Part shown: piece after piece, positions 5,801-11,631 of the stretch
How the letters are laid out: the number at the start of each line of letters is the position of its first letter
Position numbering within the stretch: the first letter of the stretch is position 1
Assembly (NCBI GenBank): GCA_947458345.1
Contig: CANHBU010000025.1
Location: 1-11,631 of the forward strand
Source of the DNA: Comamonadaceae bacterium
GTDB taxonomy: Bacteria > Pseudomonadota > Gammaproteobacteria > Burkholderiales > Burkholderiaceae_C
Length of the DNA stretch: 11,631 nucleotides
Direction of reading: 5' to 3'
Position numbers and translations under genes: made by a program
Notes under the pieces: model-generated
The model's input: only the letters and a program-made list of their open reading frames with translations
The model's database searches: none
Told to the model about the DNA's origin: nothing

Positions 5801-7162
5801 TCATGCTGCAATCGGATAGTCGGCCAGCCCGTGCTTTTGCCGCAGGCGGTAAAGCGTCATTCGTGAGACGCCAAGCAGCCGGGCGGCGTGCGTCATGTTT
5901 TGATCGACCCGACCCAGAGCCTTTTCGATGGCCTCGCGTTCGGCCAGGGCACGGACGGCCTCAAGAGCCAGCGCCGCGTCATCCTGGGGACCCGGCAGCC
6001 CGAGGTCGGCGGCCGAGATCAGGCGCTGATCGGCCATGACCACCGCACGTCGCATCCGGTTTTGGAGTTCGCGCACATTGCCAGGCCAGGGGTGGGTCAA
6101 CAAAGCAGAAAGCGCGTCTTGGCTAAAGCCCTCCACCTGGGTATCACTCAAACCGGCAAGACTGGTGCGCAGAAAATGCCGCGCCAGCGCGGGGATGTCC
6201 GACAAGCGCTCGCGCAAGGGGGGCAGGTGCAAGGGCAGCACGCTGAGCCGATAAAAAAGATCTTCGCGAAAGCGCCCGCTGGCCACTGCGCTGGCCAGGT
6301 CAATATGCGATGCGGCGATCACGCGGGCGTCGACCTGCAGCGTGCGGTTGGAGCCGACTTTCTGGATGGTGTGCTCCTGCAAGAAGCGCAGCAAATTCGC
6401 TTGCAAATCCAGCGCCAGATCGCCGATCTCGTCGAGGAACAAGGTGCCGCCGGCGGCCGTCTCGATCAAGCCGGCGCGGCCGTTGGTGGCCCCAGTGAAC
6501 GATCCCCGCTCATGGCCGAAGAGCTCCGACTGAATCAACGCGGGGGCGATGGCACCGCAGTTGACGGCCACAAAGGCTCCGGTGGCGCGTCGCGACTGCT
6601 GGTGTATGGCTTGCGCGGCCAACTCTTTGCCGCTGCCACTTTCGCCGCTGATCAGAACCGGCGCATCGACCTGCGCGACCTTCCTGATCTGCTGGCGCAA
6701 GGCCGCCATGGCCGCGCTCTGACCGATCATGCCCAGCTCATCGTCGGCCAGCGTAAGCGCACCGCCGCCTAGCAACAAGCTGGCCCGGCGCTGGGCACTG
6801 GCCAACAGTTGCTCCAGCCCCTGAAAGGGCAGCGGATGGGTCTGGTGATCGCGCAGATGGTTGATCACCAGCTCCCGCCAGGCACCAAGCTCGAGCGCCT
6901 CGGGCGGCAGCACACCCACCCATTGAATCGGGCCTGGGGTGCGCAGGCCCCGCAGACATTGCAGGGTTCGCTGCAGCAGCGGCGCCAAGGGCTCTTCAAG
7001 CCAGACCAAACCCACCTGCCCCTGCAGACCTGCCGATGGGCTTGCTGCGCCAGCCGCGTCTTCAGAGGTGGCGATCAGGTGCCAACCCTGCAATCGCAAC
7101 TGCTGTGCAATATGCGCTGCGGGCAGGCAGGGGCAACAGTAAAGCGTCTGGGTGGCAGCCAT
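5801..7162 (-). CDS. VpsR-like sigma-54-dependent transcriptional activator
   Basis: A 453-residue bacterial enhancer-binding protein. The N-terminal domain (about 1-130) is receiver-like but has Glu-Glu (56-57, in VWLEEP) where a receiver would end its third strand with the phospho-aspartate; the DHQTHP segment (105-110) resembles the D-Y-H-T-L-P signature of VpsR-type domains. The AAA+ domain has Walker A GESGSGKE (173-180), sigma-54 contact loop GSFTGA (220-225), Walker B LFLDEIGD (241-248), arginine-finger segment FREDLFYRL (298-306) and WPGNVREL (359-366). A Fis-type helix-turn-helix closes the protein (about 410-446). All catalytic parts look intact. It starts 13 bases after the outer-membrane gene on the same strand, so the two probably share a transcript. 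A matching -24/-12 promoter lies before the divergent fibre gene at 8814, its likely target. VpsR itself responds to cyclic di-GMP; that this protein does is inference. Confidence 0.9.
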   Translation of the reverse strand: MAATQTLYCCPCLPAAHIAQQLRLQGWHLIATSEDAAGAASPSAGLQGQVGLVWLEEPLAPLLQRTLQCLRGLRTPGPIQWVGVLPPEALELGAWRELVINHLRDHQTHPLPFQGLEQLLASAQRRASLLLGGGALTLADDELGMIGQSAAMAALRQQIRKVAQVDAPVLISGESGSGKELAAQAIHQQSRRATGAFVAVNCGAIAPALIQSELFGHERGSFTGATNGRAGLIETAAGGTLFLDEIGDLALDLQANLLRFLQEHTIQKVGSNRTLQVDARVIAASHIDLASAVASGRFREDLFYRLSVLPLHLPPLRERLSDIPALARHFLRTSLAGLSDTQVEGFSQDALSALLTHPWPGNVRELQNRMRRAVVMADQRLISAADLGLPGPQDDAALALEAVRALAEREAIEKALGRVDQNMTHAARLLGVSRMTLYRLRQKHGLADYPIAA

Positions 7163-7175
7163 GCGATGTGCCGGC

Positions 7176-10661: not shown

Positions 10662-11366
10662 ATGACCAAGACTTGCCTTGCCGTTGTGGGTCGCTGTGCG
10701 GCCATGGTGCTTGCCACGCTGGCTTTGCTGGGCTGCCAGGCACTGCCTGCGCCGCCCTCGACTGCGGTCGTTGGCGACTTCGCCGTGCCCGTGCTCAGCT
10801 GGCGACAGAGCCGCCTGTCAGGCACGCTTTTGCAGCAGTACGATTTCAGCTGCGGATCGGCCGCGGTGGCCACCCTCTTGACCCACCACTATGGCCTGCC
10901 GACCAGCGAAGGCGCGGTCTTTGAGAGCATGTATGCGCAGGGCGATCAGGCCAGGATCAGGCGCGATGGCTTTTCCATGCTCGACCTCAAACATGCTTTG
11001 GCTGCCTACGGGCTGCAAGCTGACGGCTTCGAGCAGCCTCTTGAAAAACTGCAGCAGGCCGGTCTGCCGGCCATTGTCCTGATCACGGAAAACGGGTATC
11101 AGCACTTCGTGGTCATCAAGGGGCTGTCTGCCGAGCGCGTGCTCATTGGCGATCCAGCCAAAGGCACACGCGCCCTGTCGCGGCGCGCCTTCGATGCGGC
11201 CTGGCTCAATCGGATCTTGCTGGTGGTGCACAACCGGACAGAGTTGGCCCGATTCAATTTGGCGGCCGATTGGGCCGCTGCACCGTTGTCGCCTTTGGCT
11301 GCGGGCATGAGTCGGGGCAGCATGACGGCCGTGACCCTGCCCAAGCACGGCCCGGGGGATTTTTGA
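10662..11366 (+). CDS. C39-family cysteine peptidase lipoprotein (FapD-like)
   Basis: 234 residues counted from ATG 10662 (GGAG six bases upstream); GTG 10650, preceded by AGGGG, is an equally possible start. A lipoprotein signal ends in LLGC (22-25) with Gln after the Cys, favouring outer-membrane sorting, so the enzyme probably faces the periplasm. The C39 catalytic set is complete: oxyanion Gln58, Cys64 in YDFSCGSAA, His148 in QHFVVI and Asp168-equivalent Asp164 in GDPAKG. The Gln-Cys distance of 6 and the His-Asp distance of 16 match those in ComA-type C39 domains. C39 peptidases cut after double-glycine leaders; stand-alone members such as FapD work in amyloid export. The stop overlaps the next start by one base (TGATG), so the two genes are translationally coupled. 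Confidence 0.88.
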   Translation: MTKTCLAVVGRCAAMVLATLALLGCQALPAPPSTAVVGDFAVPVLSWRQSRLSGTLLQQYDFSCGSAAVATLLTHHYGLPTSEGAVFESMYAQGDQARIRRDGFSMLDLKHALAAYGLQADGFEQPLEKLQQAGLPAIVLITENGYQHFVVIKGLSAERVLIGDPAKGTRALSRRAFDAAWLNRILLVVHNRTELARFNLAADWAAAPLSPLAAGMSRGSMTAVTLPKHGPGDF

Positions 11367-11631
11367 TGAATGCAATTGAAGGCCCGGCCTTGCCAGCAGG
11401 GGCGCGCCTGCATCAAGCGCTCAGGCTTGGCAAGCCGGCGGGCCTGTGGTGCGCCGCCCTGCACGTCACCCTATACGTCACGCTATACGTCACCCTGTAC
11501 GTGACCCTGTCCCTGTGCGCGGGTCGTCCGGCGCAGGCCGAGACTGCGCGTGCCGAGCCGGCCGCTCAGGTTTGGCTGGCCGCCAGCGATCTTGAGCTCG
11601 ATCAATTGCGCGGAGGCTTCCAGCTCGGCGA
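11366..11631 (+). CDS. Exported protein with double-glycine motif (partial, runs off the right edge)
   Basis: The first 88 codons are present. ATG 11366 overlaps the peptidase stop and has GGGGGA (11354-11359) six bases before it. A long signal peptide contains VTLY repeated about four times in its hydrophobic core (34-49) and likely ends at AQA-E (58/59). The mature start carries SDLELDQLRGG (74-84), which fits the double-glycine leader consensus: Ser at -11, Glu at -8, Leu at -7, Leu at -4, Gly-Gly at -2/-1. I recall small secreted proteins with an L-R-G-G-F motif beside C39 peptidases in related bacteria, possibly FapE-like, but cannot confirm this here. It is a natural candidate substrate or partner of the adjacent peptidase. 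Confidence 0.75.
   Translation, partial: MNAIEGPALPAGARLHQALRLGKPAGLWCAALHVTLYVTLYVTLYVTLSLCAGRPAQAETARAEPAAQVWLAASDLELDQLRGGFQLG
11465..11512 (+). repeat. 12-base tandem repeat in a signal-peptide core
   Basis: Four imperfect copies of GTCACCCTATAC encode VTLY-VTLY-VTLY-VTLS (residues 34-49) inside the hydrophobic core of the signal peptide. Differences are at third positions, plus one Tyr-to-Ser change in the last unit. Copy-number change would keep the frame and alter core length by four residues. Confidence 0.9.

Follow-up and report, generated by a model that had tools for sequence, protein, structure and literature searches.

Genes of the locus and kinship of the export machine

The DNA analyzed here (the window, 11,631 nucleotides) is the entire contig CANHBU010000025.1 of a Comamonadaceae bacterium, from an assembly of 2.3 Mb in 399 contigs that is 66% complete and presumably metagenome-assembled (GCA_947458345.1). 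From position 5801 to its right end it carries a locus related to the Fap system of Pseudomonas (FapABCDEF). Six features had been claimed for this locus in a first-pass annotation, and all six are present among the open reading frame (ORF) calls, two on the minus strand and four on the plus strand. The minus strand encodes a BrfA-like sigma-54 enhancer-binding protein (EBP; 5801..7162) and an exported, FapF-like outer-membrane barrel (7176..8408, with an alternative start perhaps at 8333 by comparison with the related locus L038). The plus strand encodes the major exported protein (working name BIG; 8814..10208), a small exported protein (SML; 10290..10640), a FapD-like C39 cysteine peptidase (10650..11366), and the last gene, for a FapE-like exported protein (LST; 11366..11631), which the contig end truncates, the window being a complete contig of a fragmented assembly.

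The export machine is near certain to be of the Fap kind, since barrel, peptidase and last gene all agree with the Fap relationship proposed at first pass. The barrel matched the NCBIfam FapF profile NF058560 at 3.7e-39 (134.7 bits, where the equivalog cutoff is 700 bits), the FilC profile at 1.4e-17, and the FapF chains in the Protein Data Bank (5o67) at 1.8e-28. A search with Foldseek, using an AlphaFold2 model built from 22 sequences (mean pLDDT 71.7; 117 of 410 residues below 50), returned FapF first (5.5e-21; target-normalized template modelling score 0.85), followed by the COG4313 channel 4rl8 (1.5e-10), so that the best fold is that of FapF and not of a solute porin. The C39 protein matched Pfam C39 at 9.8e-22, the FapD profile NF058616 at 5.5e-34 (117.4 bits; cutoff 330) and the FilB profile at 2.3e-29. 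Its catalytic triad, Cys68 (codon 10851-10853), His152 and Asp168, is invariant in 12 of 12 sequences, and export signals or lipoboxes were recognized by eye on the peptidases. Profile searches thus connected the locus with FapD, FapE and FapF, while FapB and FapC gave no match.

Together with the two loci nearest to it, L037 and L038, the window stands apart from most other loci in both components. A lipobox (LLGC-like in the window, with its Cys at 10734-10736) is found by eye in these three peptidases and, using a loose pattern, in one other (L058) among 23. The periplasmic coiled coil is missing from the same three barrels, as judged by eye and without a program, and is visible in 14 of 16 other barrels compared in this way, the remaining two being a fragment (L056) and a barrel shown partly (L053). 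We speculate that a lipid-anchored peptidase might substitute for the docking function of the coiled coil.

A scan of a genome collection with an SML alignment gave 404 loci with a relative, of which the best 80 were examined. The titles of these 80 name Burkholderiales genera or families, or carry broader labels such as Proteobacteria, and the two closest matches among them are metagenome-assembled genomes of Comamonadaceae. Four loci duplicated other genomes in the sample and were dropped. In the remaining 76, the C39 gene was found in 73 of 73 and LST in 70 of 70 where the sequence was sufficient. SML, C39 and LST were accompanied by the barrel in all 50 non-duplicate loci with full flanks and by the activator in 49; BIG was found in 49, 32 times by profile and 17 times as a Gly-rich ORF with a visible C-terminal box. 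The gene set thus recurs in the loci examined. Activator and barrel are divergent from the subunit genes, as in the window, in 36 of the 50; in 11 the activator comes first and the barrel last, in two the barrel and activator are mutually divergent, and one has no activator (orders differing only in ORF start were pooled). What had been described as a rearranged relative is thus no one-off but the commonest arrangement of a large branch.

The linkage was also seen from the side of the barrel. Among 200 genomes of the family, 17 had a barrel match, 12 of the branch type and five Fil-like. All ten branch-type barrels that lie on long enough contigs have SML, C39 and LST beside them, so that in this sample barrels of the branch type were not seen apart from the C39 and subunit genes; the five Fil-like barrels have a C39 gene and other partners. 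At the expect value (E) limits used, 45 of 300 genomes sampled from the order have a FapD-like peptidase, as do 38 of 398 sampled from the phylum. The 36 of these regions that were fetched comprise, by the genes beside the peptidase, 23 classical Fap loci, 11 of the branch type (four of them outside the order) and two Fil-like. The window's locus thus belongs to a widespread branch of the Fap kind, mostly in Burkholderiales, on which a literature search by genus names gave nothing among the matches listed. One genome (G461) contains a branch locus (L140) and a classical fap locus (L131) about 11 kb apart, and in a genome outside the order the BIG-SML-C39-LST block is tandemly duplicated (L189:5488-10870).

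Trees of 58 barrels and 59 peptidases, in which branch, Fap and Fil rows had been grouped beforehand and some rows are gappy or long-branched, contain these three groups as separate clades with starred support (100/100 in both trees for the division between branch and Fil). The window's branch lies outside the classical Fap clade and outside the Fil clade in both. Midpoint rooting gives it no consistent sister, grouping it with Fap when barrels are compared and with Fil when peptidases are. Features common to the branch and Fap are the FapF-type barrel, a periplasmic C39 peptidase of FapD type, a FapE-like protein whose leader has the same geometry, a set of three exported subunits and an RpoN-type promoter. 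It differs in its clade, in having no FapA that could be found and no FapB/FapC repeats, in a GG where Fap has G[RK] at the leader site, and in a barrel gene that is divergent or at the 3' end. Fil systems (FilB/FilC, NCBIfam) likewise have a C39 gene adjoining a FapF-like barrel, but Fil-like loci contain a FadL-like protein and other exported proteins, as seen by eye.

To the left of the locus are ordinary-looking genes, named by eye as the end of argD, argF, an FAD monooxygenase and a LysE-type exporter. Positions 3719-5749 encode a 676-residue membrane protein whose methyltransferase matches were weak and below the cutoff. On the right, the locus had been thought to continue past the edge. 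LST is indeed cut by the contig end, but five of six relatives examined extend beyond LST, and inspection by eye suggests no kinship among the longest ORFs of that region; the locus therefore probably ends with LST.

A double-glycine leader in SML and LST

LST was connected to FapE through a comparison of alignments with hhalign: its relatives, aligned without the window copy, matched a profile of nine classical FapE proteins at 91.9% probability (P 7e-7) over 30 columns only, centred on the leader site described below. The window's LST ends just beyond this site. SML and LST vary in their N-terminal parts except for one stretch, LxxxRGG, which stands out as invariant. It follows a Sec-type signal (recognized by eye), has the general form V(−12)x4L(−7)x3R-G-G in both proteins, and is represented in the window by LSHQRGG in SML (10425..10445) and LDQLRGG in LST (11597..11617). 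The motif was present in 85 of 85 LST and 83 of 88 SML proteins, counts that express conservation and not probability because the rows are homologous and near-duplicates were kept (five Fil-like loci and four duplicates were left out). It was absent from BIG (0 of 60), C39 (0 of 87) and EBP (0 of 71), and occurred in 102 of 9935 other ORFs, spurious ORFs included, that served as a control. The five SML exceptions have LxxxRGR (three) or LxxxRAG (one) or are cut by a contig edge (one). At −12, 79 of 83 SML and 83 of 85 LST proteins have one of the residues V, L, I, M, F and A.

These features agree with the substrate consensus of C39 peptidases, L(−12)XXXE(−8)L(−7)XXXXG(−2)G(−1), as given in the available part of its source (PMC6959990). 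Both proteins share with it the hydrophobic −12 and −7 and the Gly at −2 and −1; the Glu at −8 is not general in them. From this pattern, cleavage of SML and LST by the C39 peptidase after R-G-G, predicted after 10445 and after 11617, is likely. Peptidase-containing ATP-binding cassette (ABC) transporters and other C39 bacteriocin exporters share the C39 fold and, in the source just cited, the leader consensus L(−12)...L(−7)...GG, but in those exporters the ABC transporter itself carries the peptidase as a cytosolic domain, whereas here both peptidase and proposed substrates carry export signals. LxxxRGG is also found in six of 78 barrels, where it lies in the linker that joins the coiled coil to the barrel. 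In classical FapE, the aligned site has a hydrophobic −12 and L or M at −7, followed by RG[RK][YF] in 22 of 24 sequences (one has TGKY; one row was unmatched).

The substrate of FapD has been discussed before. In the portions available of the 2017 paper by Rouse et al. (PMC5557850), the FapD cysteine was needed for FapC secretion, peptides of the first ~70 residues of FapE were not found, the Fap proteins are said to be without canonical C39 sequences, and the target of FapD is called unclear; the authors point to GG/GA motifs both in FapE and close to the barrel of FapF, and favor FapE as the FapD substrate. A 2018 review, in its available part, likewise leaves the substrate open (PMC6173800), and a limited search of open-licence papers gave no later report of a FapD cleavage site among the titles listed. 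FapE as a FapD substrate is thus, as far as those portions go, the idea of Rouse et al.; the shared site is what is added here.

SML and LST also have a C-terminal QN box in common (P 1.8e-5; 9.8e-6 in a second comparison), and SML extends for 62-66 residues after the GG. At E 0.001, database searches found 398 relatives of LST and 4192 of SML; among the 120 matches listed for each, the named ones are nearly all "hypothetical protein", and two LST relatives are named as an RnfE subunit. A search with one classical FapE gave 14 proteins, the named ones all from Aquitalea or Chromobacterium.

Several observations touch the leader and its proteins in other loci. Upstream of classical fap genes, L127 (5782-6150) and L133 (13257-13751) encode extra small exported proteins with LxxxRGT or LxxxRGG, which are candidates for unrecognized FapD substrates. 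FapA of the Pseudomonas-type loci L172-L179 has a stretch L-S-D-x-D-[FI]-x-x-[VI]-x-S-G with spacing similar to that of the leader motif, a pattern matched by 10 of 18 FapA profile hits. Several exported proteins of the Fil-like loci L032-L034 and L036 show, close to where the mature protein begins, stretches that by eye resemble D-x-x-L-S-x-V-x-x-Q-D-G; these may be the leader in its Fil form. In the window, the LST signal peptide contains a 12-nucleotide tandem repeat (4.5 copies, 11457-11510) whose TLYV units lengthen its hydrophobic core and whose length may vary. LST of Cupriavidus campinensis (L020:7370-8520) seems to be split over two overlapping frames, through a frameshift or a sequencing error.

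Sigma-54 signals and the linked activator

A sigma-54 (−24/−12) promoter-like site, TGGCATCGATGTTGCA, lies at 8719..8734 on the plus strand, 95 nucleotides before BIG, and is the sole strict match on both strands of the window. In the region 600-3300 nucleotides before SML, a strict site was found in 43 of 69 loci, whereas the other strand has one in a single locus of the 69. Within a shorter stretch ahead of BIG, the strict definition matched in 43 of 82 loci and the relaxed one in 54 of 82. Three site-less loci, two from Cupriavidus and L109, have no linked activator. The intact locus is also present in Variovorax paradoxus, with an activator, and in Cupriavidus metallidurans CH34, where none is linked. 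Before the barrel, sigma-54 sites were not above shuffles; before EBP the score was slightly above them (mean best 16.1 vs 14.8). The gene rpoN is present in the window's assembly. Further upstream of BIG, the plus strand has two enhancer-like dyads, a proximal one (8602..8621) that agrees with CTGTCACA-N4-TGTGACAG at 11 of 16 positions and a weak distal one (8508..8527) whose offset is about that of the copies in L037 and L038. At a threshold of at least 12 of 16 positions, the dyad was found in 29 of 34 site-bearing loci and in 8 of 680 shuffles, a partly circular test, since these loci had also supplied the dyad.

EBP consists of a receiver-like N-terminal region (weakly matched), an AAA+ domain (Pfam Sigma54_activat, 1.3e-68) with a GSFTGA loop, and a Fis-type helix-turn-helix (HTH_8, 6.7e-09), and is linked to the barrel in most loci. 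The FleQ-like cyclic diguanylate (c-di-GMP) motif LFRS is not visible in the window's EBP, and a VpsR domain match (0.0017) was below the threshold. The paper on BerB mentions neither "fap" nor "amyloid". In the available part of one report (PMC9207406), BrfA of P. fluorescens PF07 is the adjacent sigma-54 activator of Pseudomonas fap, whose subunit operon has a −24/−12 promoter; the window has an EBP gene and a promoter-like site in the same places. The claim that the locus has its own sigma-54 activator therefore stands, but on this precedent the activator is nothing special. EBPs positioned like BrfA beside Pseudomonas-type fap loci share a tree with those of the branch, and in this tree of 49 EBPs the two sets intermingle (five changes each). 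With no suitable outgroup and without BrfA among its rows, this tree leaves orthology of EBP and BrfA as a tentative reading from gene position. BrfA is described as c-di-GMP-responsive in what is available of its source (PMC13101488); by analogy, c-di-GMP may control this locus as well.

The major protein and a model for fibre export

BIG consists of a signal peptide, an Asn/Ser/Thr repeat, a Gly-rich region and a conserved C-terminal box (10062..10205). The repeat is a 30-nucleotide tandem repeat of 11.2 copies (8943..9275) that encodes about ten residues of the type DNSNRSTTTA. First-pass annotation had considered the Asn/Ser/Thr plus Gly design unusual. The repeat is real, but the design is general in the branch: 45 BIG proteins were parsed into an Asn/Ser/Thr part, a Gly part and the box, with medians of 56% Asn+Ser+Thr in the N part and 42% Gly in the Gly part. 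A reading of BIG as a FapC homologue was rejected for want of a profile match. BIG is thus not detectably related to FapC, so that the fibre is of amyloid type by inference. The FapB/FapC repeat (GN-X-G-N-X2-AG-X2-NQQ-X-N type), in its full or relaxed form, was found in none of 60 BIG, 88 SML and 85 LST proteins; one BIG of the 60 has two or more loose matches. As a control, the full form matched 18 and the relaxed form 28 of 42 classical ORFs, themselves chosen for loose repeats.

The absence of a visible FapA-like chaperone, noted at first pass, was borne out: a FapA profile, searched against the 11605 ORFs that 99 loci (the window included) contain, gave no match at E 10. This profile, made from eight Pseudomonas-type loci (one row being a wrong-frame ORF), does match classical loci of the order, and loss of FapA is common in true Fap systems (PMC3792158). 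The conserved C-terminal box of BIG contains QN and has a weak link to the QN box that SML and LST have in common (best P 0.0011). With BIG taken as an SML that a Gly-rich insert interrupts, the spliced comparison gives P 0.024, column-shuffled controls reach 0.0031, and the middle part could be extracted for nine of 60 proteins.

Taken together, the locus probably serves to export and assemble a surface fibre, representing its own branch of the Fap kind with sigma-54 regulation and double-glycine maturation. In this model, the BrfA-like EBP would bind the two upstream dyads and open the promoter at 8719-8734, which would drive BIG, SML, C39 and the FapE-like gene, with barrel and activator forming a divergent unit. 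The exported proteins would cross the inner membrane via Sec. The periplasmic C39 peptidase, probably lipid-anchored in the window's sublineage, would then recognize the hydrophobic −12/−7 face of the leader and cleave both SML and the FapE-like protein behind R-G-G. Once matured, these minor subunits may initiate or gate export by way of the FapF-like barrel, which would pass the unfolded, Gly-rich BIG to the surface for assembly of the subunits there. A more general proposal, which is about as likely as not, is that this two-leader route (Sec first, then a double-glycine cut by a free or lipid-anchored periplasmic C39 peptidase that licenses export through a FapF-type barrel) operates throughout the FapD/FilB superfamily, with classical FapE (RG[RK]) as a diverged substrate and the LxxxRGG of the barrel linker as a second substrate in some lineages.

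A number of points count against this model. BIG and SML have neither FapB/FapC repeats nor profile matches to those proteins, and the literature consulted holds no cleavage, fibre or staining data for the branch. Twenty-six of the 69 loci are without a strict sigma-54 match, 23 of them having an activator; the dyad test is partly circular and the window's own dyad copies are weak, 11 of 16 positions at best; the EBP tree, lacking a proper outgroup, fails to separate the branch from fap-linked activators. The motif counts come from homologous proteins and near-duplicates and are not independent, 72 of 78 barrels are without LxxxRGG, and classical FapE has R or K at −1, so that one rule for both proteins needs a changed pocket.

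Of the alternatives, the one that retains most force concerns the product. A Fap-like machine could export something other than amyloid, with BIG as a disordered, Gly-rich protein that acts as an adhesive or matrix and is retained by the minor subunits. The low-complexity composition of BIG and its lack of Fap repeats are what such a protein would have, while the conserved QN-containing box of BIG, the QN box common to SML and LST, the export route and the kinship with FapE speak against this reading; we regard the non-amyloid product as a serious possibility, though short of an even one. The leader motif might instead be a docking site, at which C39, acting as a chaperone, would bind SML and the FapE-like protein and leave them uncut. 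Catalytically inactive C39-like domains are mentioned in the available text of Rouse et al. (PMC5557850), and the R/K at −1 in classical FapE fits docking, but the triad is invariant in 12 of 12 sequences, and in Pseudomonas, as far as the same text goes, the FapD cysteine is required and N-terminal FapE peptides are missing, making docking unlikely. It is very improbable that SML is a bacteriocin-like double-glycine toxin matured by C39. The pairing of such a leader with a C39 peptidase is the classic bacteriocin arrangement, and the 62-66 residues after the GG suit it. Against this, a Sec-type signal (by eye) precedes the leader, SML is linked to a FapF barrel and a FapE-like protein, and inspection of the window's ORFs, beyond which no search was made, revealed neither an ABC transporter nor an immunity gene. 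A solute porin that adjoins unrelated genes by chance, for which 4rl8 as the next fold might speak, is rejected as scarcely credible given the ten orders of magnitude by which FapF is the better fold and the linkage in 50 of 50 loci.

Under the model of a Fap-kind fibre exporter, the branch suggests that one export machine can carry major subunits that look unrelated. The conserved leader motif suggests where the poorly understood FapD-type protease cuts, and the branch gives a likely function to the SML and LST protein families, mostly named hypothetical among the matches listed. Because the branch has canonical C39 sites in two exported proteins, and because the aligned position exists in classical FapE, the question of the FapD substrate is directly testable with a few point changes.

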